Assembly (NCBI GenBank): GCA_030427885.1
Contig: JAUICM010000005.1
Location: 310,001 to 374,000, forward strand
Source: Rhodothermia bacterium
GTDB lineage: Bacteria; Bacteroidota; Rhodothermia; Balneolales; Balneolaceae
Direction: 5' to 3'
DNA length: 64,000 bases
Shown here: piece by piece, positions 6,846-36,400 of the stretch
Position numbering within the stretch: the first letter of the stretch is position 1
Layout: each line of letters opens with the position of its first letter
Program-made: the position numbers and the translations under genes
Notes under the pieces: generated by a model
What the model saw: the letters and a program-made list of their open reading frames with translations, nothing else
Told to the model about the DNA's origin: nothing
Database searches by the model: none

Positions 6846-8642
6846 ATGGGGCGAAATCTACAGGCGATCATATTGGCGGCAGGCTATGCAAGAAGGATGC
6901 GTCCGCTTACCAACAGTACACATAAGACACTACTTGAGATCAATGATGAGAGTGTACTTTCTCATATCATTCAGAAGCTGGTAAAAAATGATATTACAGA
7001 CATAACCCTTGTTCTTGGTTATCTGGCAGATGAGCTGAAGGAACACGTTGAGCAAAGGTTTCCTGATATTGTATTCAATTATGTGGTGAACGAGGACTAT
7101 GATACAACCAATAATCTGGTCTCTCTGCACATGGCGCTCGAAGAGGTTGAACTCCGATCAGATGTGATCATCATTGAATCGGACCTTATCTACAGTGAAG
7201 AAGTACTTCAACAGATCCTGAATTCAAAGTATGAGAATGTGGCCCTGGTGGATCATTTTCAGCCGGGAATGGACGGAACGGTGGTTTCTATTAACGGAAA
7301 TCAGATCACAGGAGTAATACCGCCTCATCTACAGGGGGAGGATTTTAACTTCAATGATAAGTTCAAGACCCTCAATATCTATAAGTTTTCAAGTGAGTTT
7401 TGTTTTGGTCCGTTCAAAGACCTGTTGTCTCATTACACCTCTTCCAGAAAAGACAGCTATTACGAATTGATGCTGGGTGTGATCATTTATTTGAGAGCTG
7501 AAACTATTCATGCTGAAATTCTGAATGGCGAGAAATGGGCCGAGATCGACGATCCTAATGATCTTCAAATAGCGCGGTATAAATTTGAGAACAAACCTAA
7601 AAAGATTCTGGATGAGGCTTATGGTGGATTTTGGAATTACGATGTGACTGACTTTTGCTATTTGAGAAATATGTATTTCCCACCTTCAGCTATGCTTTCA
7701 GAACTGAAGAATAACCTTACAAAAACAATTTTTGAGTATGGTTCATCACAAAAGATCCTCAACCGGAAAATGAGTTACTTTCTGGAGTGTTCTGAGGATC
7801 ATGTGGTTTGTGTGAATGGGATCTCACAATTATACCCGATCATGAGAAATCACTTTAGGGGGAGATCTGTGCTTCATCCGAGTCCGACTTTTGGTGATTA
7901 TTTCCGGGTTTTTCCTGAAGCCTCCCACTACTACGATGAAGTAGGAATCGATACGACTGATTTTGAAAATACCGAAGAAGAAGTCATTATTTTTGTAAAC
8001 CCGAATAATCCAACCGGAAGTATGGTTTCTTCTGAGTGGATCTATGAATTTGCTGAAACTCATCCCGATAAGACCATTCTTGTGGATGAATCATTTATAG
8101 ATTTCAGCGATGAGCCATCCCTGGTCCCAATGTTGATGAAAAAGCCAGTGCAGAATGTGATCGTAATCACAAGTCTGTCAAAGATCATGGGGATCGCTGG
8201 CCTCAGGTTAGGATATTGTTATACCCACAATGAAGAGTTTTTGGAAACACTCAGGAACGAGATCCCGATCTGGAATATTAATACGATCGCAGAGAATTTT
8301 CTGGAGATACTGTTGAAATTCAGAAGGGAATACGGAGAATCACTGGTTCATGTAAAAGCTGACCGTGAGTCGTTTTTCAATGAACTCAGGAAGGTGGATT
8401 TTATAAAACATCTTTATCCAGGTGGGGGGAATTATCTTCTTGCTGAACTGACGTTAGATGATGAGCAACTTTCTGACTTAAACGATCATTTTTTAAGTGA
8501 GCATAATCTGTATCTAAAACCTGTAAGCGAGAAATTTCGGACCGGGAACTGGATGAGGTTTGCGGTCCATAATCCAACAGAAAATGAGAATCTGGTTCAG
8601 AGATTGACCGAATACAGCCCTATTAGTACAAAAACAGTATGA
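6846..8642 (+). CDS. Bifunctional nucleotidyltransferase / PLP-dependent aminotransferase fusion (PntC-like)
   Basis: A 598-residue two-domain protein. Residues ~1-245 are a sugar-phosphate-type nucleotidyltransferase: AIILAAGYARRMRPLT (NTP-binding loop), KTLLEI, and acidic metal-binding residues (IIESDLIY; EIDDPNDL). Residues ~255-590 are a fold-type I class I/II aminotransferase: NPNNPTGS, LVDESFIDF, and SLSKIMGIAGLRLGY, in which the Lys should form the PLP Schiff base. This fusion resembles PntC, which in spirochaete phosphonate synthesis joins CMP to 2-aminoethylphosphonate and carries a transaminase domain; single-domain relatives include LicC-type cytidylyltransferases. No phosphoenolpyruvate mutase gene is in the window, so the substrate may be another phospho-amino compound. 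An AGAAAGG site lies just upstream of the ATG. It overlaps the next gene by 4 bp (ATGA). Confidence 0.8.
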   Translation: MGRNLQAIILAAGYARRMRPLTNSTHKTLLEINDESVLSHIIQKLVKNDITDITLVLGYLADELKEHVEQRFPDIVFNYVVNEDYDTTNNLVSLHMALEEVELRSDVIIIESDLIYSEEVLQQILNSKYENVALVDHFQPGMDGTVVSINGNQITGVIPPHLQGEDFNFNDKFKTLNIYKFSSEFCFGPFKDLLSHYTSSRKDSYYELMLGVIIYLRAETIHAEILNGEKWAEIDDPNDLQIARYKFENKPKKILDEAYGGFWNYDVTDFCYLRNMYFPPSAMLSELKNNLTKTIFEYGSSQKILNRKMSYFLECSEDHVVCVNGISQLYPIMRNHFRGRSVLHPSPTFGDYFRVFPEASHYYDEVGIDTTDFENTEEEVIIFVNPNNPTGSMVSSEWIYEFAETHPDKTILVDESFIDFSDEPSLVPMLMKKPVQNVIVITSLSKIMGIAGLRLGYCYTHNEEFLETLRNEIPIWNINTIAENFLEILLKFRREYGESLVHVKADRESFFNELRKVDFIKHLYPGGGNYLLAELTLDDEQLSDLNDHFLSEHNLYLKPVSEKFRTGNWMRFAVHNPTENENLVQRLTEYSPISTKTV

Positions 8643-9235
8643 TCACACGAATATTCCAGTATGTACAGAGATTTTCGGCCGTCTATCTGAACGCCTTACC
8701 AGGTGCATACAACCGGCGTAAACTGGAACTGCTCAAAGAATTTTATGAGAAGACCAACAGTTTTCTAAAAGATCTGGGTGTTGAATACTGGCTTTCTTAC
8801 GGAACCCTGCTTGGCTGGTACCGGGAGGGGGGAATAATTGCCCATGATATTGACATAGACTATGCGGCATCCAGTGACATGTATGAAAGAATCCTGAAGG
8901 ATGAAGATAAACTCCCTGTAGGATTGAAACTGTTTGACACCTCTGAGAATCACAAAGGACCTAAGTTGTACTTCAGCTACAAAGGGTTTGATGCGGATAT
9001 TTATTTTTATGAAAAAAGAGAGGGGATGATGTATCCGACCCTGATTAGCAGTATTCCGTCAGATATGATCGAGTTTCCGGAGGAATGGATATATCCTTTG
9101 CGGGAAGTTAGTTTTCTAAATAACCAAACCTATGTGCCTTCAAATACCAAAGCATATTTAGAGCACTGCTATGGCTATATTGGGAAAAACGCAGCTTTTG
9201 ATAAAAAGACGGGATATTATTATCCAAAGGAATAA
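8639..9235 (+). CDS. LicD-family phosphotransferase
   Basis: A 198-residue LicD/fukutin-type protein. The motif YWLSYGTLLGWYREGG, followed by IIAHDIDIDYA, is the family hallmark, the Asp-rich part being the predicted metal/nucleotide site. LicD proteins transfer phosphocholine or a similar headgroup from a CMP-activated donor to surface glycans. The gene starts inside the stop of the nucleotidyltransferase-aminotransferase gene (4-bp overlap), so the two are translationally coupled; the upstream enzyme plausibly makes the CMP-linked donor used here. No membrane segment is evident; activity at the cytoplasmic face of the inner membrane is inferred. Confidence 0.82.
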   Translation: MITRIFQYVQRFSAVYLNALPGAYNRRKLELLKEFYEKTNSFLKDLGVEYWLSYGTLLGWYREGGIIAHDIDIDYAASSDMYERILKDEDKLPVGLKLFDTSENHKGPKLYFSYKGFDADIYFYEKREGMMYPTLISSIPSDMIEFPEEWIYPLREVSFLNNQTYVPSNTKAYLEHCYGYIGKNAAFDKKTGYYYPKE

Positions 9236-14152: not shown

Positions 14153-17137
14153 GTGAGAAGTTTAATAATGTTGGCGTTAGTATTATTAGCCGTGGACATT
14201 AGTTTAGGGCAGAATATACCATCCCAAAGTTATGTGGTAACACATTTTGGGATGGAGGATGGACTGCCCCAAAGTTCTGTGAATGATATCATTCAAACCA
14301 AAGACGGTTATATCTGGTTGGCAACCTTTGGCGGACTTGTTAGGTTCGATGGTAATACCTTCACAACTTTTGATCGTTCAAATACTGAGAATTTCAATTC
14401 AGATAGAATCCTCAGATTATTTGAAGATAGTGAAGGGGGGTTGTGGATCTTTCCTGAAAACGTGGAAACTATAATGTATCGCTTTAAAGATGGAAAGATC
14501 AGACGTTATACTTTTCCTGAAAAGAAAGCGACCCTACTGGACATGTATACCGATAGAAGAGGAGTGCTTTGGCTGACAGCTTTTGGTAAAAGCTACCAGT
14601 TTAAGAATAATGAATTTGTTGAGGTGCCTGTAAGTAATGATCAGAATCTGTTGGAGGCAGCACTTTCAGATACAAATGGAGTTTGGATTCTGGGTGGATC
14701 GAGGCTCCTTAAAACGTATGGTGATCAGGTTGTTCAGTACATGGATATTAAAACCAAAATGAACATTATACCTAACAGGATCATTGAATATCCAAGGGGA
14801 TCGGGAACGATCTATCTGGGAACGATAGATGAAGGTGTTATCCGCGTAAGGAATAAGGAACTGGATTTTTTCAATTCAGGTAATGGCCTTCCAAGCAATT
14901 ATGTACTCGATTTTATCACAGACAAATCAGGTAATTTTTATACATATATGTTTTCGAGGTTTGCCAAATGGAACGGCTCATATTTTGAGGAGTTCGATCC
15001 GGTAAAAGAACCGGAAGACCTTCAGTATAAAGCAATACTTGAAGATTATGAGGGGAACTTATGGATGGGAACAGCAGGTAATGGGTTATTTCGCCTACGA
15101 CCTTCAGCTATCAGTATGATAGATAAAGACCAGGGCCTTGCAACCGAGATTATGTTATCAATAACCATGTTAAGAGATGGTTCTGCATTACTCTCTACTA
15201 ATTGTGGAGGAATTTATGAATGGAGAGATGGAAGAGCTACATATTCGAAACTTCATAAATTCATGGGCGGAGGTTGCAACTGGTCGGTCTATGAGGACTC
15301 AAAAGAAAGAATATGGATCGGAGCCGAATATCCATATGTGATAAACTCGTTTGATAAAGAAGGAATTTACCTGGGAAAGGGAGCCGGATATACACCAGGA
15401 GTTATATTTACCATAACTGAAGATAAAGATCACAAAGTATGGGTGGGTACTTCTACAGGACTTTATGTTTTTGAAAATGATAAGATCGTTAAACATTACA
15501 CTACAGAAAACGGGTTATCCTACCTTGATGTAAGAACATTGTTTGAAGACAACGATGGCACGATGTGGGTAGGTACAATGAGTGGGTTAAATGCAATCCG
15601 TGGTGATCAGGTAACAAGGATCAGCCTGGCTAATGATTATGAGGGGGAAGAAGAATATGTACAGCCTACAATAAGGGCCATCTATAAAGATGAAGAAGGG
15701 ACTATGTGGGTCGGTTCCTATGGAAATGGTCTTTTTCGGATAAAAGATAGTGAAATTACCAACCTTACAGTTTCGGACGGGCTATTTGATAATATAATCT
15801 CTCATATCATAGAAGATATGTATGGCTACTTCTGGATGGGTAGTAACAGAGGAATCGCCAGGGTCAGTAGATCAGACCTTAATAAGTATATCAGCGGCGA
15901 GATCAATGAATTTAAAGTAAGTAGTTATGGAGCCTCTGATGGAATGAATTCTGCAGAGACCAACGGTGGGTTTCAGCCAAATGCTGTAATGGATTCTCTT
16001 GGCAGGATCTATTTCCCAACAGTAGCTGGGGTTGCTGTGGTGGATCCTGAAAAAGTGAAGATAAATGAAATTCCACCACCAGTACAAATTGAACATCTGC
16101 GAACTATTGATGAGGAGTTATCCTTTGATAACTCGATTGAGCTCTCGTATGACAATCCGTTTATTGAGCTCGCATATACTGCAATCAGTTTTACGGACCC
16201 AAAAAATGTAAACTTTAAATATAAGATGGAGGGACTGGACGATTCCTGGATAGATGTGGGGAACAGGAGAGTGGCTCTATATTCAAAATTACCGGCAGGT
16301 AAATATACATTTAGAGTGATTGCCAGTAATAACGATGGGGTATGGAATGAAACCGGTGACTCATTAGAGATCATCATTGTTCCTCCGTTTTGGCAAACTA
16401 TTTGGTTTTACGGTATTATCGGATTCTTATTGTTAACCGTGGGGCCACTCATATTTTATTATCGTGTTAAGCAGCTCAAAAAAGAAAACGATCGCCAAAA
16501 AAGATTTACCGAGCAGCTGATCGAATCTCAGGAACAGGAGAGGCGTCGTATTGCAGCTGAACTTCATGATGGTTTAGGACAACAGATACTTGTGATAAAA
16601 AACCGAGTGGAACTGGCCAAGAAGCAATCCGGGAACACTGAAATGTTAAAAGAACAGTTGGATGAGATCCTGCAAAGTGCCGTTGTTTCCATTTCAGATG
16701 TACGTACTATTTCGCATGGATTGAGGCCTGTTCACCTGGAAAAATTTGGTCTAACTGACTCTTTGAACAATCTGTGTGAACAATTACAGAAGACTTCGGA
16801 AATTGAATGGAGTTATTATTTCGAGAATATTGATGGGTATATACCTGAAGACAAAGAGATCAATTTTTATCGGGTTATCCAGGAATCCATTAATAATATT
16901 CTAAAACATTCGGAAGCAGAGGAAGCTTCAGTTGTGGTAAAAAAAATAGATGGTGAGATTCGTGGTACGATCTGGGACAATGGAAAAGGGTTCGATATGA
17001 AGAAAGAGTCAGGATTTCACGGCTTGGGTTTTGTTGGAATGAAAGAACGTGTTGAAAGCCTTGGAGGAAATATTTCAATTAATTCTGAAAGCGGAGTTGG
17101 CACATCTATAAAAATTACCGTTCCTTTTTCTGGTTAA
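14153..17137 (+). CDS. Propeller-type sensor histidine kinase (paralogue 1)
   Basis: A 994-residue sensor kinase. A signal sequence (residues ~1-20, ends SLGQ) precedes a periplasmic two-component-regulator propeller with repeats such as LPQSSVNDIIQTKDGYIWLATFGG, MWVGT and FWMGSNRG, then a Y_Y_Y domain (FKYKMEGLDDSW...AGKYTFRV). One membrane helix lies at ~746-770. The cytoplasmic part is a HisKA_3 dimerisation domain with ELHDGLGQQ (phospho-His, ~805-810) and a HATPase_c domain with N box (ESINNILKHSEAEEA) and G box (DNGKGFD; GLGFVGMKERV). The start used is a GTG; an in-frame ATG lies 15 bp inside. It is 17 bp upstream of a close paralogue and is followed by a NarL-type regulator. The signal sensed may be periplasmic oligosaccharides, as known for some relatives; inference only. 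Confidence 0.9.
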   Translation: MRSLIMLALVLLAVDISLGQNIPSQSYVVTHFGMEDGLPQSSVNDIIQTKDGYIWLATFGGLVRFDGNTFTTFDRSNTENFNSDRILRLFEDSEGGLWIFPENVETIMYRFKDGKIRRYTFPEKKATLLDMYTDRRGVLWLTAFGKSYQFKNNEFVEVPVSNDQNLLEAALSDTNGVWILGGSRLLKTYGDQVVQYMDIKTKMNIIPNRIIEYPRGSGTIYLGTIDEGVIRVRNKELDFFNSGNGLPSNYVLDFITDKSGNFYTYMFSRFAKWNGSYFEEFDPVKEPEDLQYKAILEDYEGNLWMGTAGNGLFRLRPSAISMIDKDQGLATEIMLSITMLRDGSALLSTNCGGIYEWRDGRATYSKLHKFMGGGCNWSVYEDSKERIWIGAEYPYVINSFDKEGIYLGKGAGYTPGVIFTITEDKDHKVWVGTSTGLYVFENDKIVKHYTTENGLSYLDVRTLFEDNDGTMWVGTMSGLNAIRGDQVTRISLANDYEGEEEYVQPTIRAIYKDEEGTMWVGSYGNGLFRIKDSEITNLTVSDGLFDNIISHIIEDMYGYFWMGSNRGIARVSRSDLNKYISGEINEFKVSSYGASDGMNSAETNGGFQPNAVMDSLGRIYFPTVAGVAVVDPEKVKINEIPPPVQIEHLRTIDEELSFDNSIELSYDNPFIELAYTAISFTDPKNVNFKYKMEGLDDSWIDVGNRRVALYSKLPAGKYTFRVIASNNDGVWNETGDSLEIIIVPPFWQTIWFYGIIGFLLLTVGPLIFYYRVKQLKKENDRQKRFTEQLIESQEQERRRIAAELHDGLGQQILVIKNRVELAKKQSGNTEMLKEQLDEILQSAVVSISDVRTISHGLRPVHLEKFGLTDSLNNLCEQLQKTSEIEWSYYFENIDGYIPEDKEINFYRVIQESINNILKHSEAEEASVVVKKIDGEIRGTIWDNGKGFDMKKESGFHGLGFVGMKERVESLGGNISINSESGVGTSIKITVPFSG

Positions 17138-17154
17138 TGCGATGTACATGAAAA

Positions 17155-20145
17155 ATGAATAAGAAGGTAACTTTAGCATCAGTCATTTGTTTTTTGCTTG
17201 TATTTTGGGGACAGATCTTGTTAGGGCAGGGTATTGAGCTTCAAAACTATGTGGTTACTCAATGGGGGATGGAGGAAGGACTACCTCAGAGTTCGGTGAA
17301 TGATATTATACAAACAAGGGACGGTTATATCTGGATGGCTACTTTTGGAGGTATAGTACGATTCGATGGGGTATCATTTACGACTTTTGATCGTGCTAAT
17401 ACGGAAGAGATGCGATCTGATAGAGTATTGACTCTATTCGAAGACAGTCAGGGTTCCATTTGGATTGGTACAGAGGATGGACTCCTGAAATACAATCATG
17501 GGAATTTTGAGACCTATTTATTAACTGTGAATGGGCAGGTGTATGCTCCTAACTGGTTGATTGAAGATGGAAATGGAAAAATCTGGATCTCCGTAAATGG
17601 AGAAATATTTACACTAAAAGACAATCAATTTGTAAAACAACCTGTCCTGATTGATGACCGGGTAAAGAAGGCTGCACTAAAAGATCCCGATGGGGTATGG
17701 ATTGCACATGCAAAAGAATTGCTAAGAACCACAGGGGATACCGTGGTTCAGGTCATGGATCTGGGTAATATGCTTCCTTCCAATATCATAGATTTTATTG
17801 AATACCCGCAAGGTTCTGGTACTTATTTTTTTGGTACTGATGGAGATGGTGTTATTCGCTATGAGGATGAGGAGTTCACAAAATACAGCGCGGATGCAGG
17901 ACTGGCATCCAGGTATATTTGGAATTTTAATACCGATCGTCAGGGTAATTTCTGGGTCTCTGCTTATAATGGTCAGAGTTTTTGGACCGGCAAGGGATTT
18001 CAGGAATTCAAAGCTGTTACCTCAAAAGAAGATATTCAGTTTACCAGTATTCTTGAGGACAATGAAGGGAACTATTGGGTTGGTACAATGGAAAAAGGGG
18101 TATATAAATTACGCCCTTCTGTTATAACAACTATTGGGTTCGACCAAGGTTTGTTGAACGATAAAATGCTATCGCTTACCACCCTTAAGGATGGAAGAGT
18201 TCTTTTTGCCACAAACTGTGGAGGGATCTACGAATTCAAGGGTAAAGAAGTAGAACCACTAGCTTTAAATCAATGGCTTCCTAACCAGTGCGTATGGTCA
18301 ATCTTTGAAGATTCGAAGGGGCGGGTCTGGTTCGGAGCCAGAGAATTATACAGAGTAAATTCTCTGGATAAACCGGGAAACCTGATTGGAAAGGAACAAG
18401 GGTTTACTGGCAACGATATTTATGCCATTTATGAAGATTCAGAAGGAAATATCTGGATTGGTTGTTTTAACGGCTTATATAGATTCGATGGTAAATCATA
18501 TCATCGGTTTTCAATTGAAGACGGACTGGCCTATAATGATACAAGGACAATTTTTGAAGACAGCAAGGGGAATCTGTGGGTAGGTTCTTCATCGGGTCTG
18601 AGTGTATTAAGGGGTGATGAGATTCGAAAGATCAGTTTGCTTGATGGTGTGGACGTCTCAAAATCTAATCCTGAGCCATACATTCGTGCAATTCATGAAG
18701 ATGAGAATGGAACCATGTGGTTTGGTTCTTATGGAAGTGGAATTTTCAGATTGAAAGATGGAGAACTTTCAAATATCCGAGCCGAAGATGGATTATTCGA
18801 TAATATTGTTTCCCATCTGAGGGAAGATGAATTCGGAAATTTCTGGATGGGAAGTAACAGAGGAATATTCAGAGCAAAAAGGGCAGATCTTAATGATTTC
18901 AGTGATGGAAAAGTAAATTCTGTAAGCAGTATTTCCTATGGTGTTGAGGATGGAATGAAATCTGCAGAAACCAATGGTGGATTTCAGCCCAGTACAATTT
19001 TTGATGAGGAAGGTAATATCTATTTTCCAACAATCAGTGGAGTGGCAGTTGTAGCGACAAAGAAAATTGAAGATGTTACCAATGCGCCTCCGGTATATAT
19101 AGAACGTCTCAGTTCCAGCGAAGACCAGATCCCATTATCAGAAAGTATAACATTGCCATATGATAATGCATATATAGAGATCAGATACACAGCTTTGAAT
19201 TATAAGGATCCAGATAAGCTTATTTTCAGATATAAGATGGAAGGGTTTGATAATAACTGGATAAATGTAGATAACCGGAGAATTGCACTCTATTCTAAGA
19301 TCCCTCCGGGAAATTATACATTTCAGGTGAATGCAAGTACTAATAATGGAGTTTGGAGTGAGAAAGGAGCTTCGTTAAAAATAACTGTAGTACCTCCGTT
19401 CTGGCAGACAACCTGGTTTTATGTCCTAATCGGTTTTCTTTTCCTGATATCGGGTCCACTGATATTTTATTATAGGTTCAGCCTGCTTAAAAAAGACCGG
19501 GACAGGCAGAAACGATTTACAGAACAGCTCATCGAATCACAGGAACAGGAACGCCGTCGTATTGCCTCTGAACTACATGATGGTCTTGGTCAGCAAATAC
19601 TGGTAATAAAGAACCGAGTTGAGTTAGCAAAGAAACAGGTTTCTGATCCGAAAATGTTGACAGAGCAGCTGGACGAAATTTTGCAAAGTGCAGTGGTTTC
19701 TATCTCCGATGTCAGATCTATTTCACATGGATTGCGTCCTGTTAATCTGGAGAAGTTCGGACTTACAGAGGCACTGTCTAATCTTTGTGATCAGGTACAG
19801 GATGCTTCTGAAGTTAATTGGAGTTATTATTTTGACAATATTGACGGGGTTATCCCTGAAGAAAAGGAGATCAATTTTTATAGAGTGATTCAGGAAGCCA
19901 TCAATAATATCTTAAAACATTCATCAGCTGAGGAAGCCTCAGTAATGGTAAAACAAGTAGGGAATGAAATAAAAGCGACCATTTGGGATGATGGAATTGG
20001 TTTCGATCCGAAAGAGGAGGTTATCTTTGGCGGACTCGGTTTTATCGGGATGAAGGAAAGAATTGAAACGTTGGGAGGTACCATCAGTTTGGAATCGAAA
20101 ATAACTGAGGGTACCACTTTGAGAATTATAATACCGATAGCATAA
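17155..20145 (+). CDS. Propeller-type sensor histidine kinase (paralogue 2)
   Basis: A 996-residue tandem paralogue of the preceding kinase with the same order: signal peptide (ends LLGQ), propeller repeats beginning LPQSSVNDIIQTRDGYIWMATFGG, Y_Y_Y domain (FRYKMEGFDNNW), one membrane helix, HisKA_3 (RRRIASELHDGLGQQ) and HATPase_c (WDDGIGFD; GLGFIGMKERIE). The region around the phospho-acceptor His is almost identical in both copies, whereas the propeller blades differ clearly. This suggests that both act on the same regulator but respond to different cues. The stop codon is directly followed by the ATG of the response regulator, indicating one operon. Confidence 0.9.
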   Translation: MNKKVTLASVICFLLVFWGQILLGQGIELQNYVVTQWGMEEGLPQSSVNDIIQTRDGYIWMATFGGIVRFDGVSFTTFDRANTEEMRSDRVLTLFEDSQGSIWIGTEDGLLKYNHGNFETYLLTVNGQVYAPNWLIEDGNGKIWISVNGEIFTLKDNQFVKQPVLIDDRVKKAALKDPDGVWIAHAKELLRTTGDTVVQVMDLGNMLPSNIIDFIEYPQGSGTYFFGTDGDGVIRYEDEEFTKYSADAGLASRYIWNFNTDRQGNFWVSAYNGQSFWTGKGFQEFKAVTSKEDIQFTSILEDNEGNYWVGTMEKGVYKLRPSVITTIGFDQGLLNDKMLSLTTLKDGRVLFATNCGGIYEFKGKEVEPLALNQWLPNQCVWSIFEDSKGRVWFGARELYRVNSLDKPGNLIGKEQGFTGNDIYAIYEDSEGNIWIGCFNGLYRFDGKSYHRFSIEDGLAYNDTRTIFEDSKGNLWVGSSSGLSVLRGDEIRKISLLDGVDVSKSNPEPYIRAIHEDENGTMWFGSYGSGIFRLKDGELSNIRAEDGLFDNIVSHLREDEFGNFWMGSNRGIFRAKRADLNDFSDGKVNSVSSISYGVEDGMKSAETNGGFQPSTIFDEEGNIYFPTISGVAVVATKKIEDVTNAPPVYIERLSSSEDQIPLSESITLPYDNAYIEIRYTALNYKDPDKLIFRYKMEGFDNNWINVDNRRIALYSKIPPGNYTFQVNASTNNGVWSEKGASLKITVVPPFWQTTWFYVLIGFLFLISGPLIFYYRFSLLKKDRDRQKRFTEQLIESQEQERRRIASELHDGLGQQILVIKNRVELAKKQVSDPKMLTEQLDEILQSAVVSISDVRSISHGLRPVNLEKFGLTEALSNLCDQVQDASEVNWSYYFDNIDGVIPEEKEINFYRVIQEAINNILKHSSAEEASVMVKQVGNEIKATIWDDGIGFDPKEEVIFGGLGFIGMKERIETLGGTISLESKITEGTTLRIIIPIA

Positions 20146-21416: not shown

Positions 21417-24400
21417 ATGAAACATCTGTTACATATAGTTTCAATAATTTTTCTTCTAACGGGAATAGTTCAGGCTCAGGATATGGAGGTTACTTCAACC
21501 ACTCCTACGGATGGGAGTAGCTGGCAGGAACTGGATGCTAATATTACTGTCACTTTTGACGAAAATATTGCACCGGCAAGTGCAAATTATAACTCCATAA
21601 CGGTAGTTGGGAGTACAAGCGGTAATCTTAGTTTTGGTTCCAACTACTCTGTAAGTGGAAATGTCGTTACTATTAATCCTGGAGCCGATTTCTCGTATTC
21701 TGAAACGATTACAGTGACAGTAACTACTCAGGTTCAAAGTTCGGCCACCTATGATAATGGAGAAGGTGTTTTTCTACCTGCAGATTTAGCATCAGACTCA
21801 GTATTTACATTTACAACCAAAGGGCCTGCTCCAAGACCTTCAGTTGTTTCAACCGTGCCTTCAGCTAATGCGTTTAATGTGGATGCAGATCAGATCATTT
21901 CCATTACGTTTGATACCTTGATGGCTGGTACTGGTTTTGATGAAGGTGTAATTGAAATATACGGGTCGATAGGTGGTAACTATGATTTTGATGATGCAGA
22001 ACAAGGTGAGGATATCGGTAATCCTGATATCACAGGAAGTGGTGCAACCGTATCAATAGATCTGGATAATTCATTTGTAGCAGGGGAGATTGTAACAGTG
22101 ATCCTTACTACCGGTGTTTCTACCTGGAATGAGGAACGACAGGAATATGGATATCTGGAATCACCCTATATATGGCAATTTCAGGTAGGAAGTGTAAGTA
22201 ATAATGCGCTTGTAAAAGTAGATAGTTCTTACACAAGTGGTACCAGTCCTGTAGGTATTGCTTTTGCAGATATGGATAATGACGGGGATGTGGATATCGT
22301 AACCGCAAATAGTGGGGATAATAATTTTTCGGTTTATTCAAATAATGGAAGCGGGTTTTTTGGTTCTCCTGCCAATTACAGTACCGGATCAACACAGCCT
22401 GAGAATCTTGTGGTAGCTGATTTTGATCAGGATGGGTTTGAGGATGTTGCTGTTTCAAGCCAGGGTTCAAACGACGTTAAGGTTTTTACTAGCAATAATG
22501 GTTCAGGTTTTAACGGAGCAGAAACTTATACCGTTGGCTTCGCACCCAGAGCAATTACAACAGGCGATTTTGATGGCGATGGCAAATTGGATCTGGCTAC
22601 TTCTGCATCAAGCAGCGATAGCGTTGCCGTTTTAATAAATGCGTATTCATTAACTAATAATGGATTCTTTGGACCGTATAAATTTGAGGTTGGGCAAGGT
22701 CCTATTGGTATCACTTCCTTTGACCTGAATAATGATAATATCATGGATATTGTGGCAACTTCACATGGTACGGATAATGTATCTGTGTTAGTTGGCTCAG
22801 GAAATGGAACTAATTTTTCCGCATACTCAAACTTTGCGGTGGGTGATGGTCCATTCTCAGTAGAAGCTGGTGATGTGGATGGTGATGGATATTCAGATCT
22901 GGTAACAGCCAATGAATATGCAAGCACTGTAAGTGTGCTTATCAATGATGGTGCATCCGGTTTCGATACCAAGGTGGATTACTCAGTAGGAACAACTCCC
23001 AAAGATGTTCGTTTGGTAGATGTGAATGGTGATGGCGATCTGGATATTCTTACCGTTGATAACGGAGGAACTGCAACGGTTACTTATCTGGAAAATGCAG
23101 GGGATGGAACCTTCTCTTTAGCGTATACCTATGATGCCACTGGTGGTGCTTTTGGGTTTAACGCCGGTGACCTGAACGGGGATGAGATCATTGATTTTGC
23201 GGTAGGTAGTTCCGGTAATACTTTTCTACAGGTTGTTTCTTTATATGATGGCCCAATGGTTACATCGGTAAGTCCGGTTACCAATACCTTTAATGTAAGT
23301 GCTTCAACTAATATCTCAGCAACCTTAGATGAAAGCATCGGAACTTCATCGGTAAGTTCAACTACATTTACCGTTCATGGTTCTGTCAGTGGTCAGCATA
23401 CGGGATCTTTTTCGTTCTCAAATAGTGATAAGACAATAACATTTGATCCTACTAATGATTTTGAGCCTGGTGAAAGAGTAACTGTTACCGTTAGTTCAGG
23501 TATACAGGATCCTGGGGGAAATAGTCTGCCTGAGCCACATTCTTTCCAATTCAATGTGAGTTCAAACAGTGGATACGGGGATTTTGGAAATTTAACCAGC
23601 TACACTGTATCTGGTACTAATACCGATAATATTGTAGATGGTGCTACCGCCGATTTTAATGGTGATGGATATCCTGATATCGTAGCGATTGATTATAATA
23701 ATGCCCAGTTAAAAGTATTTTTCAATGATGGAGACGGTACTTTTGATGATGCTTCTGTGACGATCAGTACACCAGGTTTTCCGGTGGATGTAGCTGCAGC
23801 TGATATTGACAATGATGGAGATATGGACTTGCTGACAGCAAACAATAATGCGGCTGGGTTCTCGATCATCAAAAACAACGGGAACAGTACCTTCGCTACC
23901 CGTACAGATATTTCATACTCATCAGCAACAACTATTGCCATCGGTGATATGGACAATGATGGTTATATGGATGCTTTATTAGATAAAGCAGGTTCTGATA
24001 CCCTCTACACCTTCTTTAACGATGGTAGTGGTGGTTATTCAGGTGCACCATCTAAAACAAAGATAGCCTCCAGCATGACGGACATCGAAATTGTGGATGC
24101 AGAAAATGACAATTATCTGGATATAGCAACAGTACATGGTGGTTCTGTTAATACGATATATCTGCTTTCCAATAATGGGGATGGAACCTTTACCAATGAA
24201 GATTCAAGATCTGTTTCAGGTAGTCCTGCAGCAGTGGCTTTTGGAGAGCCTTATGGTAGTTTAACTTTTGGGGTAGCAACTTCAAGCGGTAACAGCTTTT
24301 TCAGAACTGGATTAAATACAAACTATACTGAGTTTGCAGGAAATGTGAATTTATCAGCTGGAAGTAATCCTCAGAGTATCATCGTGTCTGATTTTGATGA

Positions 24401-27400
24401 TATTTCTACCAATAGTGACAACAGCGGTGACTTCCTGATGGCTAACTATGGCAATTCGACATTGTCATTATTAAGCTCTGATGATTTTGATTACAGCTTT
24501 ACCGAAACAACGATTTCACTCACCGCAAATCCCTGGGATTTAGCTACAGCTGATTTCGATGGAGATGGACGTATGGACGTAGTGACCTTTAACAACAACG
24601 GTGAAATTTCAGTGTTGTATAACATGGATACCACACCGCCAACGGTCAGTTCTGTTAGTCCGGTAAATAATGCTACTAACATTGCAGTTTCCTCCAACAT
24701 TACCGTCAATTTTGATATGGCGATAAACTCATCTACACTGGATTCGAGTTCAGTCGTAGTTATGGGTAGTCTCTATGGGCAGTATGACGGAACCTATTCA
24801 TATAATTCAAATACACTGACGATTGATCCGGATACTGATTTCTTACCTGGTGAGCAAATTACCGTTTCAGTAACCACGGGTGTAGAAAATACAAATGGCA
24901 TTTCTGCAGTTGCTTATATCACTCAATTTAACACCGCCGGCGGAAGCGCAAATATTCTGGCAGACGATGTGAAGGTAGGGGCAACCAATCCGTATGGCGC
25001 AGAGTTGGCAGATGTAGACGGTGATGGTGATCTTGATCTTCTTGTAGTTAATTTTTCGGCTGACAGTGTTAGTATCCGGTTAAATGATGGGGCCGGTACT
25101 TTTGGTGCAATAACTCCATATTCGACAGGTGCCGGACCAATTGGAGTTGAAACCGGAGATTTTGACCGTCAAAACGGAATGGATTTTGTTGTTAGTAACT
25201 ATTCAAGCAATACCGTTTCTGTATTTACGAACAATGGTTCGGGTTCATACTCCTCAACAGATTATGCAACAGGTTCAAACCCAATTGATGCAGTAACAGA
25301 AGACTTTAATAAAGATGGCTATACCGATATTATTGTATTTAACAGAAGTGGGGCATCCGCAACTATTCTGTTAAATGATGGCGACGGAACTTTCACATCT
25401 TCCGGTACCATAACCAATTTAGGTACCAATAAAGATATGATTTGGGCAACCGATATTGATAACGATAACGATATTGATATTGTAACCGGTGGGGCTGGTC
25501 AAACCCTCACAATCGCAAAAAACAATGGAGATGCAACTTTTGCTGCAGCATCAGCAACAAGTATTGTTTCTCACGGAGCAGCTTTTACCGATATAGATGG
25601 TGATAATGAAGTAGATCTGATCGTTTCAAGTGATGCAACAAATACTGTTTCTGTTTATTTAAATGATGGCGATGGAGGATTTTCTTCAGCTTCTGATACG
25701 GATACACTTACCAGTGCACAAGCATTAACCACTATTGATTTTGAAAATGATGGAGACGCTGATATTCTGGTGATCAATTATGATGACCAGGAAGTGGAAT
25801 TACTGGTTAACGATGGTTCAGGAGCCTTTGATAGTACTGCAACCTTTAATGTGGGCCAATATGCCCGAACCATTACGGCAGCAGATCTCGATGGTGATGG
25901 CGATCTTGACATCGTTACCGCAAACAGAGGTAGTAACGATATTTCAATTAATTTCAGTGCTGCAGAATTACCACTGGTAACCAGTGTTGCTGCAAGTTCT
26001 GTTACCGATTCTTCTGCTACGTTGAATGGGACTATAAACGCCAGGAACTATGCTACAGATGCAGAATTTGCATACAAACTGAGTTCCTCCGGAACGTATA
26101 GCGATACCTTGACCGCAACACCATCGCAGGTAACAGGGTCATCAGATACAAATATAAGCTTCACGCTTACCGGACTTCTGCCAAATACCAGCTACGACTT
26201 TAAAGCTTTAGGTACTAATGAAGCCGGTGAAGTTGCAGGTACCGAGCTTTCATTTGCAACCGGAGAGCGCGCGCCTTATCTAGTAACAGGGAATGCCTCT
26301 TCAATCACACTTACTTCCGCAACAATTAATGGTACGGTTAGTGCACAAAACTCATCAGCAAATGCATACGTGGCCTACGGTACTTCAACAGGTGTATATT
26401 CTGATACAGTAGCGGTAAATGAAAATCCGTTGGGTAGTGCCATGGATACTTTAAGTGTTACTGCAAGCCTGAGTGGTTTAAACAATAGTACTACGTATTA
26501 CTACACCGTTTTCGCTACTAATAACGCCGGAACAACCACAGGTACTGAACAAACCTTTTCAACACTTGCGCTTCCACTCGTTGTGACATCATCTCCGGAT
26601 TCAATAAGCGGAACCGGGGTGAAATTACAGGGAACTATTAACGCGCAGAATACAACAACCGATGCCAGGTTTGTATATAAACTCAGTTCCTCAGGAACCT
26701 ATGCCGATACAGTTACAGCTTCTCCTGCTCAGGTGACAGGTTCTTCTGTAACGCCAATTTGGGCGGCCTTAACCGGGTTAACTCCAAACACCTCTTATGA
26801 TTTTAAAGCGCTGGGTATAAACGAAAATGGTGAGGTTAGTGGAGCAGATTCGACCTTCACAACTGGTGGACTTGCGCCTGTTGTAACTACAAATGCTGCC
26901 ACCGATATTGAAAAAAATACGGTTACACTAAATGGTGCTGTTAATGCTCAGAATGAAGCAACCAATGCATATTTTGAGTACGGTACAACAGCCGGAGTAT
27001 ATACGGATACCGTTGCTGCCAATGAAAATCCATTTAATGATGGCACTAATGATGTAAGTATCACCGGAAGTGTTACCGGATTATCACCACTTACTAAATA
27101 TTATTTCCGCGCATTTGCGACTAACAGCGGAGGAACTACAATTGGCGAGGTGGATTCAGTAACTACTTTACCTGAACCACCAGTTATAACTTCAGTTTCA
27201 CCGGTAGCCAATTCTGTGGATGGAGCACTGGCAGCTGACATTGTGATCAACTTTGATCAGGCAATGGATAATGGCACCATTACGAGTTCAACAGTACGGG
27301 TGATCGGATCGATGAGAGGTTTATATTCCGGCTCATTCAGTTATGGTACCAATTCCGCAACCTTTGACCCGGATTCCTCTTTCTTCCCTGGAGAAACAAT

Positions 27401-30400
27401 AAAAATCAGTCTCACCACAGGCATTGAAAGCGCACTGAGCGAGCCATTGGCATCTGCGTATGTGTACAGTATTGTGGCTGAGCAGGTAACCGGATCAGAA
27501 GTATTTGCCATTTCAAAAAGCACTTCATATTCATGGGCAGGGGCGGAACAAGTTGCTCTGGCCGACTTTAATGATGACGGCTACCTGGATATCGTGGGAA
27601 CGGTTAATGGTGGTACTGCACTAACATTTACCAGAATGAACAACGGAGACGGGACATTCTCCAGCTCCGTATCAAATAGTTTAACGGGATCTATCGGGGT
27701 GGCAACAGGTGACATCAATAACGATGGGTATGTTGATATTGCATACACGGTTAAAACTGGTGGAATGGCTATTTACTGGAATAATGGTACTAATCCTTTT
27801 AATTCAGGACAAACCTTGAGTGGTTCATCTGCTGCTCAGAATGTTGCTTTGGCAGATATAAACGGGGATGGATACCTGGATTTCATTTTTACTGAATCTG
27901 GTGTAAAAGTAGTTCCAAACAACGGAAGTGGAAACTTTAACACAGCAGCTTCTGCAACCTATGGTTCTTCAGGGGTATGGGATGTTTCCGTTGCTGACAT
28001 CAACGACGACAACCACCCTGATATCGTTGCTTCGCTTGGTACAAGTGGTGGTGTTACTGTCTATACAAATGACGGTGATGGTACCTTTACCTCAGACAGT
28101 ACCTATACAGCTGGAACAGGTTCTCAGGGTGTTCAGGTAGTGGATGTGAATGGCGACGATGTTGCCGATATCGTGGTATCCAATCTTACCTCTGATAATA
28201 TATCTGTGTTGATTGGTAACGGTGATGGTACTTTTGCAACAGCCGTAAATTATGCTGTAGCCGATGAACCTTATGACTTTGTGGCTTTCGACATAAATGG
28301 GGATGGTTATACTGATATCGCAACCACCCATCAGTCTATCGACTCTGTGTCTACGATGATAAACAATGGGGATGGTACCTTTGCCGATCCGGTATATTAT
28401 CTCACAGGGGATGGTCCGAGAGGTATCGCCGCGGGAGATGTGAACAATGATGGCGAAATGGATATCCTGACAGCTGATAATCTCTCAACATCTCATACCC
28501 TGAGATTAAAATCACCGCTGGCACCTTCAATTGCTTCATCAACGCCAGCAGCAAATGCACTCAATGTTGCTACAACATCAAACATATCAGTGACATTTGA
28601 AGTCCCAATTGATGTAGCAACCCTGGATTCCAGCAAAATTGCCGTAATCGGATCACTAACTGGTGAGTATTTCGGTTCCTTTACAAGCGTAAGTAGTACA
28701 GGATTTACTTTTGATCCGGACAGCACATTCAAAGAAGGAGAATTCATAACAGTAACCCTGTTTGGTATTGAGTCACAATCGGGTATAGCCATGGGTGTTC
28801 AAACCTTTGATTTTTCTACTCCATGGCCAACCGTGAGTGCAACCAAAGAGTTTGTTGATGGTGGTACTTTTCAATCCGTCACTGCTCCAGTTGAAATGAT
28901 AAGTACAGATGTAGATAACGATGGTGACTTGGACCTATTAATTGTAGGTAATGGAAACCAGTTATATGTAAGACTTAATAATGGTGACGGAACATTTGCT
29001 TCTTCTGTGAGTTACTCAACGAATTCCAACGTTGCTGATATGTATCTTTCGGACATTGACGGGGATGGTGATCTGGATGTTATGACAGCCCATACGGGTA
29101 ATAGTGGTATTGATACACAATTGAATGATGGAGATGGTACTTTTACTGGCGGTTATACCGGTTTCGGTACAGTAGCTGCAATTGTAACTACTGATCTGGA
29201 TAATGACGGTTATATCGATGTGATCGGAGCGAACCCAAGTGATAATTATCTGTCATTCAACAGGAATCAGGGTAATAATTCCTATCAACCGGCAGGGTTT
29301 GGAGGATCCTTATCATTCGCAGCTGGAACCACTCCGGTAGACATTGCAATGGCTGATCTGAATGGTGATGGAAGACCAGATTTTGTTACAGCAAACTCTG
29401 GTTCAGACAATGTTTCCTACTTTATGAATAATGGAGATGGAACAGTTGCAACAGCAGTCAATTACTCAGTAGGTACCGGGCCAACAAGTGTAGTTATTTC
29501 GGATGTGGACGAAGATGGTTATGCTGATATAATTGTGGCAAACGAAACCTCAGATAACGTTTCCGTTTTAATTAACAATGGAGACGGCACGTTTGCCGCA
29601 GCTGTTAATTATGCAGCAGGAGATGGTCCTGGCTCAATTACCTTGTATGACTTTAATGGTGATGGAGATATTGACTTACTCATTCCTAATTCAGTATCTG
29701 ATAGTGTATCGGTATTGGAAAGCAATGGCGATGGAACTTTCGGAACAAGAACAGCATATGCTGCAGGTGATGAACCAGTATCAGTAGTAATGCTTGATTA
29801 CGATAATGATGGTGATATCGATATGCTGGTGGCAAATAAAACCGGCAATACAATATCGATCATCGAAGCAACCGGTGGCCCGAGTGTAGAACGAATTCTA
29901 CCTGTGGCAAACCGACATTATGTACCTGCTGACACTAATATTGTAGTGAAGTTTGACCGGCCTATGGATGGTACTTCATTAACTTCAAACACAATTACCG
30001 TTGTTGGTTCATTGTCGGGTAGGCATGGTGGAACCATCAGCCTGTCAAATTCTGATAGTACAGCAATTTTTAATCCTTCCAGTGACTTTGAAGAGGGTGA
30101 AAAAGTAACGGTCGTTGTAACTACCAATGTGGAAGACGCTAACAACGATAAAATGGAGCTTCCGTACACTTCAGAATTTACAGTTGAATCAACAGCAGAA
30201 TCTATTGTTCTCCAGAAAACTGATTATAGTGATGCAGACAATGTCACAGGAATGGCAACTGCCGACTTGGATGGTGATGGAGATAATGACATCGTAGTTA
30301 CAGATACAGAAAACAGTTATGCCATTGTTTATCTAAATAATGGAGGAACATTCAGCTATAGTAGCGATTATTCAGTAGGAAGTAATCCAAGAGCCGTTTC

Positions 30401-33400
30401 ATTAGCTGATGTTGATAACGACGGGGATATTGATATCATGACATTGAACAGCTCATCAAATAATGTCTCTGTCCTTCTAAATAACGGGAGTGGTTCATTC
30501 GCATCTGCAGTGAACTATTCGGCATCTTCTGGATTATATGACATCAAAAATGCTGATATAAATGGAGATGGCTACACCGATATCTTATTAACAAAAGGGT
30601 ATTTTGCCGCTCTGCTAAATAACGGAGATGGTACATTCGGGTCTCTTGTTAACTTTTCAACGTTTTCGTACTCATACCTCGGTTATGATTTAGACCTTGC
30701 TGATATGGATGGCGATGGAGACCTGGATGCGGTTCAGGTAGCAAGCAGTAATAACCCTCCAATGCAGGTTATATATAATGATGGGAACGGAGATTTTACT
30801 TCAAATGAGTTGTACTACCTGGAAACAAGTATCTCAGATGTTGTAACAGCAGATTTTGATCAGGATGGATATCCGGATATTGCAGTTACTGACTATAGTG
30901 ATAACGTAGTTAAGATTCTGACCAATAACGGAGACGGTACGGTAGATTCCACTGCAAGCATTTCTGTTAACTCCAGTCCTCAGGCATTAACCGTGGGTGA
31001 TTATGACGGCGATGGCGATCTGGATATTTCAGTTTATCATCAATATCAACAATACATTAGTATCATATTAAACGATGGAAGCGGAAATTTCGGAACTGCA
31101 ACGACGTATCAAACCAATCAGCTGACCAGTGACTATCCGGTACTTGTTTCTGCTGATTTTGACGGGGATGGCCAAATAGATATCGCTGTTCCATATGGAA
31201 GTGGATTTAACGTGATGATCCCGAGTCCGCCACCAGCAGCTCCAAGTGTAGCCAGTTCTTTGAATTTTGGAACTCCTTCAAATTCGCAGGTAAGTATCTC
31301 TGCTAATAAAGGAAGTGCAACCGGGATGCTCTTTATTATGAAAGAGGGAAGTGCCGTTGACTTCGTGCCAAGTAATGATGTGAGTTATTCCGCAAACAGT
31401 ACGTTTGGATCAGGATCTGATCTTGGCGGAGGAAACTATGCTGTATTAAATTTTACAGGGTATCAAAGCGGAGGTGCTGTTTACGGTTTAACAAGAGATA
31501 CTGAATATCACGTTGCCGTATACACCTATAACTCTGCTGATGGGCGAATCACTTACAGCACCACAGCTGCAACAGGTAATATAACGACCTTGCTTGCACC
31601 AACACAGTCAGGTGGTATTTCTGTCTCTGGTAATTTTGGTACCAGATTGCAGGTATATAAGAATGGTGGAAACGGATCAGCCAGAATTCTGGCAATAAGA
31701 GAAGGTTCGTCAGTAACCTGGACTCCGGATGATAGTACCACCTATACAGCGAATACTGATTTCTCAAGTGCTGTTGATCTGGGAGATGGAACTAAAATTG
31801 TCTCAAATGACAACAGCAGTTCTCCCGTTGAAATAAGTGGCCTTAGCTTGAATACAACCTATTATTTCGCTCAATTCGAGTATTTCGGAGATGCTGGTAC
31901 AGAGAACTATTATACCACACCTGCCACTGCTAACGTGACCACAAGCGGTACAGCCGGGTATGCATTCGATAGTACAGCTGGAAATGCGATCTCATTTGCC
32001 GGCTACGATGGAGAAGAGTATTACTATACAAGTTTGGATAATCAGTTCGAATTCACTGATAGCTTTACCGTAGAACTATGGGTTAAACCAGATTCTATCG
32101 GTACTGCAACTAACTTCCTGTATCATTCAGGTTCTTCCGATAGCTTACTGGTGTTAGGATTGAACGCCGCCGGTAATTTCACCGGTATTGTTCGGGATGC
32201 GAATACATCCAGTAATGTTAAAGTTACCAGCTCTACTGTTGCAGCAGAAGGTCAGTGGTATCATGTTGCGATCAGTGCGGATAGCGCCGATAAAGTTCGC
32301 TTATATGTGAACGCAGTGGCAGAAGACTCTGCAGCGATCGTTGACGTGGCATTGGGTGGTGAGCTCGACTACACCGAGATCGGGGGAGTTGATGGTGAAG
32401 GTAATTTCTTCTATGGTGATATGGATGAATTACGTTTCTGGGGTGACCAAAGAACAGTATCAGAACTTCGAAGCAACAGAAGGGTCACATTAACTGGTTT
32501 CCCTGATAACCTGATCGGCTACTGGCAGTTCAATGAGGATTACGGAAATGATGCTGAAGATCCATATATAAGCTTCAATTCTTTCGGTAGTCCCGAATTG
32601 GTGGCATCAAGTGCACCACTGGGTGGAACACTGACAACCCTTGCTGATTTCCAATCAGGAACAGCTAACCTGGGTAATGTTCAGTTAACGCTAACTGATG
32701 CATTTGATAACCCGGTTGATATTGAAGTACTTGAGATCAGCTCTGAACCAGTAAACGTTCCGAGTGGATATAAATCTACGGTAGGAGACCGGTTCTTTAT
32801 CATCGAACTTATCGGTGATCCGGGTACCTTCTCAGCTGATCTGACTCTGACATATGGTTCTGGTGTGATCACATCGAATGAGGAAGCAAGTCCTGATAGT
32901 GTAATTCTATACAAACAGGATTCTAATGAAACCAGCAGCTGGCTGGCATTTGGTGGTGCAACTTCAGCTACCTCTGCAACTGGTGTGGTGACCTGGACAG
33001 GAATCACTTCATTCAGCCAGTTCGTGGCTGTAGGTCCTGATGATGCGATACCTGCACCAACCTATTGGGATAAAGACGATGCTGTAACCACGTTCACGAA
33101 GCTTAATTATGCCGACTGGACTGATTCTGCAAATCAGGATTGTATCACAGATGATGTATGTCTGACCCGTGAGGACAGAAGAGGACTCTTTAACATTATT
33201 ACGGAGACTGAATTTGATACTGATAACTATACGTCTCCGGATGGTACCGAGTGGGCAATAGGTACGGTTGATGATGTGGAATCTCTGACTTTTGATACGT
33301 TCTATAACACCTTAGATCAAAGTATCGGAAGCAACATCCTTGATAATGACATGGTTCTTCACCTGATCGATGAAAACATTTATATCGATATCAAATTTAC

Positions 33401-36400
33401 CTCCTGGACCGAAAGCGGTGATGGCGGTGGATATGGATATATTCGTGGAAAAGGACCAAACGAAGAATTCAACAGTCCGTTCCAGGCTACTGCAGGCTCT
33501 GCGATCAACTTCGACGGAGGGAATAACTACTATTACTCTGAAGCCTACTTTGATAGTCTGCCAAACGACTTTACCATTGAAATGTGGACGAAACCAAATT
33601 CGATTGGTAGTCAAATGGTAATACTTACTCACGACAGCGAGTATATGTGGATGGGTATTGACGCATCAGGCAACTTCTTCGGACTCTTGTTAGACGAAAC
33701 CCTGGGTGACACGGTAAGAATAACCGGTACCACTACGGCCACTGCCGGCGACTGGTATCACCTGGCGTTGACTGGTGAGACGGATGGAAATATGAAGCTG
33801 TATGTAAATGGCAGGGAAGAAGCTTCCACTTCCATCGGCCAGGTAGAAACCAATACTGGTACCTACTGGCTGGGAACTGATTACGGCGAGGACTACTATT
33901 ATGACGGATCGATAGATGAAGTTCGCATCTGGAATGCTGTACGTACACCAAGCCAGATTCGTGGAAATATGTACACTCCATTGAGTGGTTTGCCATCAGA
34001 TCTTAAGGTTTACTGGCAATTCAATGAAGGTACCGGTGATTATACCGCAGATTATCTGAATGGCTATTCAGCAGCTGTTGAATACGATTACGGTGAGTGG
34101 GTTACTTCTGGTGCACCATATGGTTCTGGCTCCGTAAATACCATATCAGCGTTCCAGAGTGGAAGTACCTCTGCAGGTAATGCAGCGCTTAGCATGAGTG
34201 ATGGATTTGATAATCCGGTAGATATTCAGGTAAGTGAATTGTCTTCCGCACCAAACAGCTTCCCTAGTGGTTACAACTCAAACATGGGTGGTAAATATTT
34301 CATCATCGACCTGTTTGGTGATCCGGGAACCTTCTCGGCTAATCTTACCCTATCCTTCGGTTCGGGTGTGGTAACAGCTGCTCAGGAAACTGATCCGAGT
34401 ACGATCAAGCTGTTTAAACGCGAATCCAATTCTTCAGGAAGCTGGACCGAATTTGGTGGTGCAACAACAGCGATCGCTTCTACAGGTACTGTAACCTGGA
34501 CGGGCATAACTTCATTTAGTCAGTTCATTGCGGTCGGTGAGGATAACGAGACACCTCCAAAAACGATCTGGAGTTTTGCTAATGATTCCGTCAGCTTTGC
34601 TAAAGCAAATTTTGCTGACTATACCGATTCTGCTAACCAGGACTGTCTGACTGAAAACGTGTGTATTACCCGTGCGGATTCAAAAGGCCTGTTTAATTAT
34701 GTAGAAGAATCAGGATTTACAGCAAGTTGGGATGATAGTCCTTCACCAGAGGGTACACTTTGGGCATACGGTACCACAGCCGATGTTGAAACAATGACCT
34801 TTATTCCGTTAATGCGCGCTATCTATGATGACGCCGGATTCTCAGGAACCTCAGATATAGTGGGTGAGCAATTCGTAATGTATATGGAAACAGATGATAT
34901 CTATGTGGATGTGCTCTTTACTTCTTGGCAGGAAGGTGCAGGAGGTGGAACACCAGGTGGAGGTGGATTCTCATACATCCGTGGAGCTGCTGCACCTGAA
35001 GTGCTTGATATCCAGATCGATGACGACACCAATGTGATAGCCTACATTGACAGTGCATATACATTCGAGTCAACCTTCTTCGATCTGTCCGATAACTTTG
35101 CTGATTCAGCTCTTACTTTGAGCATAGATGCTTCTCTCGAAGGTGCTCTGTTCATCGATAATGACAGTAACGGTGATTACGATTCAGGAACAGATGATCT
35201 GATCCTCGAAAGTTCAACTTACACCTATACTCCGAGTGGTTCAGCCAAACTGCGCTATATAACAGATACAGGTGGTATTGAATCAGTAACTGTGAAACTG
35301 GCAAGTGCAGGTTCAGCGGATTCTGTACTGCTTAACATCTACGGTGTTGAAGGGGATCCAAGTATCTCTGGTGTGGCTGATGAAAATAGCTGGCATCTGA
35401 TGTCCAATCCATTCACTACTAATCTGGGAACTCTGTTTGCGGATATTTGGACTCAGGGTGCGGTGAACTCGAATGCGCCTCAGGGTAATGCCACCCTCTA
35501 TACATTCAGTCAGGATAGTGGTGTCTATGTTCCAATAGAAACCGATCTGGATACCACATCGCTGGAGGCTGGTACTGGTGTTCTTGCCTATATCTTCGCC
35601 TTCGATGATTATGCTGAAGGAGTGCCAGAAAGTGGTGGATGGCCTAAAACCATTACCAACTATGGTAACCCATTTGGCTCTGCGGTTGATGTTACAGTTA
35701 AGAATGTGGATTATGATGAAAGCACTGCAACTTCAGGGTATGAAGGATTCGCATTGTTTGGTAACCCATTTGGGTGGTCATTATCTGCTGATTCATTAAT
35801 TGCTACTGTTAAGCGTGGTGACGCAACTGCCAATAACTACGTATACCGATGGGATGCAGTAAATGGCCAGTTTGAGCAAATCACTACAGGTGCCATCGAT
35901 CCTTACGAATCAGTATTCCTAAGGGTTGAAGCTTCCGGAACTTCTGTGGATATGAACCTTGATTACAGTGACCGTTATCAGGACAATCCGACTAAACGAA
36001 GAAAGGAAACTACGGTTGAAATGATACTATCGCATAAAGGAAGTGGTATTAGATCGGAATCGTACCTGAGATTTGATGAGAAAGCTAAAGCAGGAATCGA
36101 CCCATCTGATGCATACTATCTAGGTTCATATGCAAATAAGTATGCTAACATGTACACCCTGATCGGCGATCAGACACTTACGATTAACAACGTTCCTGCC
36201 AAATCCGGAGGAGAACTGGAGTACCCGGTTTATCTGGATGCATCAGTAACCGGCGATTTTGAGCTCCAGTGGAATTCACAAACGCTACCTGAAAATGGAT
36301 CTTATATTCTTGAAGATCTGAAAACAGGTATTAGAATTGATCTGAAGGAACAAAGTAAGTATTCATTTACCCGGGGAATCAGAACTAAGATTACTCCGAA

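Follow-up and report, generated by a model that had tools for sequence, protein, structure and literature searches.

A LicC-type cytidylyltransferase–PLP enzyme fusion coupled to licD: a candidate route to CDP-ethanolamine and glycan decoration in a Rhodothermia bacterium

The stretch of Rhodothermia DNA analysed here (64,000 nucleotides; the window) contains a gene in which a nucleotidyltransferase (NTase) is fused to a PLP enzyme, followed by an overlapping licD gene. Judged from sequence comparisons, there is about an even chance that this fused protein carries out two steps of CDP-ethanolamine synthesis and that LicD puts phosphoethanolamine on a glycan. The C-terminal PLP domain would decarboxylate O-phospho-L-serine to phosphoethanolamine, the N-terminal LicC-fold domain would join this to CMP from CTP to give CDP-ethanolamine, and LicD, translated from the overlapping start, would move phosphoethanolamine from CDP-ethanolamine to the glycan. 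All three catalytic steps are predicted, as are phosphoserine as the substrate and the glycan as the acceptor. The features concerned are:

6846..7595, + strand: N-terminal domain of the fusion, LicC/PntC-type cytidylyltransferase, residues 1-250 (PF12804, E 6.6e-12)
7176..7184, + strand: E111-S112-D113, from alignments; E111 is the amine-contacting Glu and D113 a predicted metal-ligand position
7464..7466, + strand: E207, the second amine-contacting Glu, from alignment
7542..7550, + strand: E233-I234-D235, predicted metal-binding motif at the alignment position of the LicC Glu216 region
7614..8642, + strand: C-terminal fold-type I, class I/II PLP domain of the SMUL_1544/CobD kind, residues 257-598 (PF00155, E 2.5e-26)
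8181..8183, + strand: K446, predicted PLP Schiff-base lysine (SLSK), aligned with the SxxK of CobD, HisC-like proteins and SMUL_1544
8639..8642, + strand: ATGA overlap of the fusion stop and the licD start, 4 nt shared
8639..9235, + strand: licD, LicD-family phosphotransferase of 198 aa (PF04991, 50.1 bits against a cut-off of 22.6)
8801..8863, + strand: LicD core motif GTLLGW...HDIDIDY, residues 55-75, from the sequence

The fusion is an ORF of 598 aa with an ATG start (6846-8642, + strand). Pfam places NTP_transf_3 (PF12804) and NTP_transferase (PF00483) at residues 7-127 (E 6.6e-12 and 1.4e-11) and Aminotran_1_2 at residues 269-587 (E 2.5e-26). Because its stop overlaps the start of licD (ATGA, 8639-8642), the two genes very probably form one translationally coupled operon, which sits on contig C10 of the source genome. 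Promoter and terminator scans gave no excess over shuffles. No glycan cluster adjoins the operon, a point against the proposed glycan decoration. The LicD protein is short (its best Pfam stretch is profile positions 4-61) and was the single match when the genome was searched for LicD. An earlier note on this DNA, made from the sequence alone, had claimed a nucleotidyltransferase-aminotransferase fusion with a coupled LicD, and the Pfam domains, the 4-nt overlap and the recurrence of the architecture elsewhere bear the arrangement out.

That recurrence in several phyla also means that the fusion is not an ORF artefact. It was found in Tychonema (48% identity), a delta-proteobacterial MAG, Gloeothece, Pseudonocardia, Fusobacterium, Priestia, Rahnella, Erwinia and three more genomes, the identities ranging over 28-55%. 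It is sparse in the sampled genomes: two phylum scans each found it in 1 of 395 sampled genomes, each time the centre genome itself, and a sample of the Tychonema phylum gave 4 of 291. Viral contigs held no full relatives, the LicD search of plasmids returned no full relatives, and the phage search matched the PLP half only, again with no full relatives. A literature search for a LicC-PLP fusion of this kind found nothing. More divergent fusions (28-29%) occur in plasmid clusters with ATP-grasp enzymes (L022, L023 and L024), whose output may be a phospho natural product. A DXP reductoisomerase homologue is present in the Priestia fusion cluster, and the Rahnella and Erwinia clusters have a CDP-alcohol phosphotransferase, HAD proteins and an MFS transporter. 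The Fusobacterium record (L021, NZ_CP084075.1, 2.1 Mb) is filed as a plasmid and is probably a chromosome.

The PLP half is predicted to be an O-phospho-L-serine decarboxylase. Its relatives of solved structure are CobD, SMUL_1544 and HisC-like proteins. In a tree of 23 PLP domains, built without Cj1436 and Cj1437, it clusters with SMUL_1544, the domains of other fusions and stand-alone enzymes of rhizobia, and CobD and HisC-like proteins fall outside this group (support 90/98; the grouping with SMUL_1544 is not starred and has long branches). A family profile found SMUL_1544 (6oux) the best of ten comparators (E 1.1e-46, with 1e-41 for HisC-like 3ftb and 8.5e-38 for CobD). This placement argues for the CDP-ethanolamine reading. 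The fusion PLP half and SMUL_1544 have in common the motifs D..(Y)L.N..Y, Y(P/G)S.Q, DESF and WNIN; at the DESF position CobD has DEAF, and the other, HisC-like paralogues in the source genome have DEAY. Against the reading we count K558 and H575, which stand where SMUL_1544 has Arg. The substrate of SMUL_1544 is reportedly phosphoserine, a result said to come from Keller et al. in 2016. Its PDB entry is titled a decarboxylase, and a role in providing the ethanolamine phosphate of norpseudo-B12 has been proposed for it (PMC4585668). Cj1436, a PLP enzyme whose decarboxylation of serine phosphate yields ethanolamine phosphate for a capsule (PMC12409886, PMC11800397), sets an established precedent that further supports CDP-ethanolamine as the product of the fusion.

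Three known identities were rejected for the fusion. It is not CobD (TIGR01140, 155.6 bits against a cut-off of 290.55) or HisC (TIGR01141, 124.8 bits against 276.55), and it is not PntC-AEPT, since its PLP half is class I/II rather than class V and it occurs apart from pepM; Pfam found no class V aminotransferase domain in it, only Aminotran_1_2. The AlphaFold model of the fusion is mediocre (pLDDT 73.6, pTM 0.55, four sequences). With the full-length model, the top Foldseek match was PntC-AEPT (6pd2) at an rmsd >21 Å, and because of this rmsd and the quality of the model we take the match to reflect nothing more than domain order. When single domains were compared, the PLP half matched best with 3fkd (named a threonine-phosphate decarboxylase) and SMUL_1544.

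A second pointer to serine comes from gene neighbours. In Fusobacterium and G680, a DUF1015 gene with DGHHR and PKST motifs overlaps the 3′ end of the fusion (L021:13826-14875 and L033:9042-10283). DUF1015 appears homologous to the archaeal enzyme SerK, a free serine kinase (PMC5120207), through a shallow profile match (hhalign E 4e-7, 157 columns, score 51.9, with 20 shuffles reaching at most 16.6); ordinary searches link the two weakly, with E 0.012 at best. A neighbouring serine kinase would suggest phosphoserine as the fusion substrate, and the overlap in two lineages is thus a further reason for the CDP-ethanolamine reading. The shallowness of the match is counted against it, as is the DUF1015 gene of the source genome, which is unlinked to the fusion (C5:28090). 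Carriers with no linked DUF1015 would draw on the phosphoserine of normal serine biosynthesis.

It is unlikely that the fusion makes some other amino-alcohol phosphate, whether serinol phosphate from DHAP, as Cj1437 does, or aminopropanol phosphate from threonine phosphate, as with CobD, and activates it to CDP-serinol or CDP-aminopropanol. In its favour, Cj1437, which is PLP-dependent like Cj1436 and works in one capsule pathway with it, transaminates DHAP to serinol phosphate (PMC11800397); CobD is related by its TIGR01140 score, and among single-domain folds 3fkd matched strongly. However, that score is far under the cut-off, profile and tree place the PLP half nearest SMUL_1544 rather than CobD or HisC, and the SerK-like neighbour points to serine.

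The solved relatives of the NTase half are LicC (PDB 1jyk, E 1.1e-12) and Tde-PntC (6pd1, E 5e-10); the 6pd1 match covers the NTase only and ends within it. In Tde-PntC the amine of aminoethylphosphonate (AEP) is contacted by Glu104 and Glu196, whereas LicC, which acts on phosphocholine, has Asp at both amine-site positions and coordinates the metal through Glu216 (PMC6697681). E111 of the fusion aligns with E104 of Tde-PntC and D105 of LicC, and E207 with E196 and D192, respectively; the choline-site Asp105 and Asp192 of LicC are missing from the window NTase, which has Glu at both. E111, D113 and E207 are invariant in 11 fusions. Tde-PntC, with its pocket glutamates, discriminates against phosphocholine (PMC6697681). 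Having the same two glutamates, the window pocket would favour a small primary amine, which agrees with CDP-ethanolamine as the product but does not separate AEP from phosphoethanolamine. Of the LicC-fold cytidylyltransferase signature GXG(T/S)RX4-8PK, the window sequence (GYARRM...THK) keeps Gly13, Arg17 and Lys27 but not the second Gly, the T/S or the Pro; the Fusobacterium fusion retains GMGSR...PK in its NTase half. The earlier description of the fusion as PntC-like holds for the NTase half, with its 1jyk and 6pd1 relatives and pocket glutamates, and fails for the PLP half, which is nearest SMUL_1544 and is not a class V AEPT.

A LicD or LicD-like gene lies by the fusion in the window, Gloeothece, Pseudonocardia, G680, G565 and Fusobacterium. 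The Pseudonocardia gene is similar to the window protein only and has no Pfam match; a 4-nt overlap is possible there (L020, ORF start 13842, fusion end 13845), although the record annotates a later start. A CDP-alcohol phosphotransferase comes after the fusion in Rahnella and Erwinia. Both kinds of partner consume CDP-linked donors, and this too argues for the CDP-ethanolamine reading. The transfer of a CMP-activated small amino-phospho group to LicD, proposed in the earlier note, gains support from the NTase relatives, the pocket glutamates and LicD as a recurrent neighbour; the chances that the activated group is ethanolamine phosphate itself seem evenly balanced.

No pepM or ppd lies near the fusion in the window, as the note had observed of PEP mutase and phosphonopyruvate decarboxylase. 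The genome search found both on contig C5, in an AEP cluster (C5:190999-201623, L016:6000-16624) with a class V AEPT that matches Aminotran_5, a PntC-like NTase, a CDP-alcohol phosphotransferase, a Stealth protein and a glycosyltransferase. Its pepM product begins with a cytidylyltransferase-like N-terminal domain and contains the motif EDKSGLKRNS, and its NTase matches 6pd1 at E 4.6e-33, against 5e-10 for the window NTase half. The cluster also encodes a putative membrane protein of 802 aa, for which Pfam gave no match. From its gene content this phosphonate pathway looks complete and would not need the fusion; that an AEPT and a PntC-like NTase are already part of it is another reason for reading the fusion as a CDP-ethanolamine synthase.

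The fusion and C-P chemistry occur apart in both directions. PEP mutase (TIGR02320) had no match in Tychonema (G395, 6.5 Mb), the 2.1-Mb Fusobacterium record, the delta-proteobacterial MAG or a Bacteroidetes single-cell genome that carries the fusion and is clearly partial. Among the four fusion genomes of the Tychonema phylum, pepM was found in G565, while G395, G666 and G680 were below the Pfam cut-off. Conversely, five relatives in the phylum scan (G369, G183, G259, G065 and G069) have pepM and no match to the fusion. This separation favours CDP-ethanolamine; the co-occurrence of fusion and pepM in G565 and the source genome we count against it. We count likewise the aepX-linked members of the PLP family. 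On rhizobial plasmids (L025, L026 and L027), aepX lies by a stand-alone PLP enzyme of the SMUL_1544 type and by a LicC-like NTase. The family therefore extends beyond phosphate esters. L026 and L027 also have a CDP-alcohol phosphotransferase, L025 and L027 have further class I/II aminotransferases, and none of the three stretches has a ppd annotation. This suggests that AEP is made there by decarboxylation of phosphonoalanine, perhaps for a phosphonolipid. That phosphonoalanine and phosphoserine are near-isosteric also weighs against CDP-ethanolamine.

A phosphonate role for the window operon is accordingly worth stating, though we think it rather improbable: the fusion would convert phosphonoalanine to AEP, AEP to CMP-AEP, or both, LicD would add AEP, and the C5 pepM would supply the C-P substrate. 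The pepM and ppd genes of the source genome, the match of the pocket glutamates to AEP-specific Tde-PntC and the rhizobial loci with same-family PLP enzymes and NTases beside aepX are in its favour. Yet the C5 cluster already has an AEPT, a 6pd1-like PntC and transferases of its own, its ppd route would skip phosphonoalanine, searches of four other fusion carriers gave no PEP mutase, and relatives with pepM are without the fusion. The note had left a choice between a pepM elsewhere and a phosphate ester. The first did turn up, on C5; the evidence nonetheless favours the second, and the decoration is probably a phosphate ester, not a phosphonate.

One methyltransferase family adjoins the fusion in four genomes, Tychonema, Gloeothece, G666 and G565 (33-68% identity; L013:9912-10607, L019:13875-14570, L032:10640-11359 and L034:10451-11173), and could methylate the amine. 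In the window, a TPMT-family gene lies 83 bp upstream of the fusion. We rejected it as a member of the system: it has no similarity to the methyltransferases beside other fusions, and 25 of the 57 relatives sampled have a homologue, although the fusion turned up in none of the relatives scanned. These two genes are what would recommend CDP-choline made from serine, the amino group being methylated before or after activation and phosphocholine decoration becoming independent of choline uptake. For the window this has little probability, both because of the dissimilarity and distribution of the TPMT gene and because the pocket glutamates resemble those of an enzyme that discriminates against phosphocholine. 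Least probable is that a conventional nucleotidyltransferase for sugar phosphates is joined to a sugar aminotransferase. Many sugar-nucleotide enzymes do belong to the NTP_transferase superfamily, but the best solved NTase relatives are LicC and PntC and the PLP half does not belong to a sugar aminotransferase family.

The proposed CDP-ethanolamine synthase can be set beside four known systems. PntC-AEPT of Treponema denticola (Tde1415, 6pd1/6pd2; PMC6697681) likewise has a LicC-fold cytidylyltransferase, with two pocket glutamates, followed by a fold-type I PLP domain; that domain is a class V AEPT, whereas the fusion has a class I/II SMUL_1544/CobD-like half and is unlinked to pepM (C10 and C5, respectively). 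SMUL_1544 is the closest solved relative of the PLP half by profile and tree and has the common motifs, but it is stand-alone, in a cobamide cluster, and has Arg where the fused domain has K558/H575. The LicC-LicD pair of Lic-1 also combines a cytidylyltransferase with LicD for glycan decoration; the window operon differs in having no choline kinase, Glu/Glu instead of Asp/Asp in the pocket, and an amine predicted to come from the fused PLP domain. Cj1436/Cj1437 of Campylobacter jejuni use PLP chemistry to supply ethanolamine or serinol phosphate for a surface glycan, but there an amide bond links the amine to glucuronate and the phosphate is cleaved off, with no cytidylyltransferase or LicD step (PMC12409886, PMC11800397).

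We put at slightly below even the wider proposal that one protein makes CDP-ethanolamine from phosphoserine for LicD, in parallel to the phosphonate pathway, and that the methyltransferase of some relatives extends this to choline with no need of uptake. The usual source of phosphoethanolamine on bacterial glycans is a lipid, phosphatidylethanolamine, and choline and AEP are known cases of decoration by way of CDP/CMP activation. If the proposal is true, a route to phosphate-ester decoration exists that is built like the known C-P route yet is separate from it, with a soluble, membrane-independent source of phosphoethanolamine in which one protein leads from phosphoserine to CDP-ethanolamine. 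It would account for genes annotated merely as ‘aminotransferase class I/II’, and a LicC-PLP fusion beside LicD would be no safe marker of phosphonates.

Elsewhere in the window, two adjacent genes (14153-20145) encode similar large proteins of 994 and 996 aa that resemble periplasmic two-component sensors with histidine-kinase ends, and a single ORF of 5173 aa spans 21417-36938.
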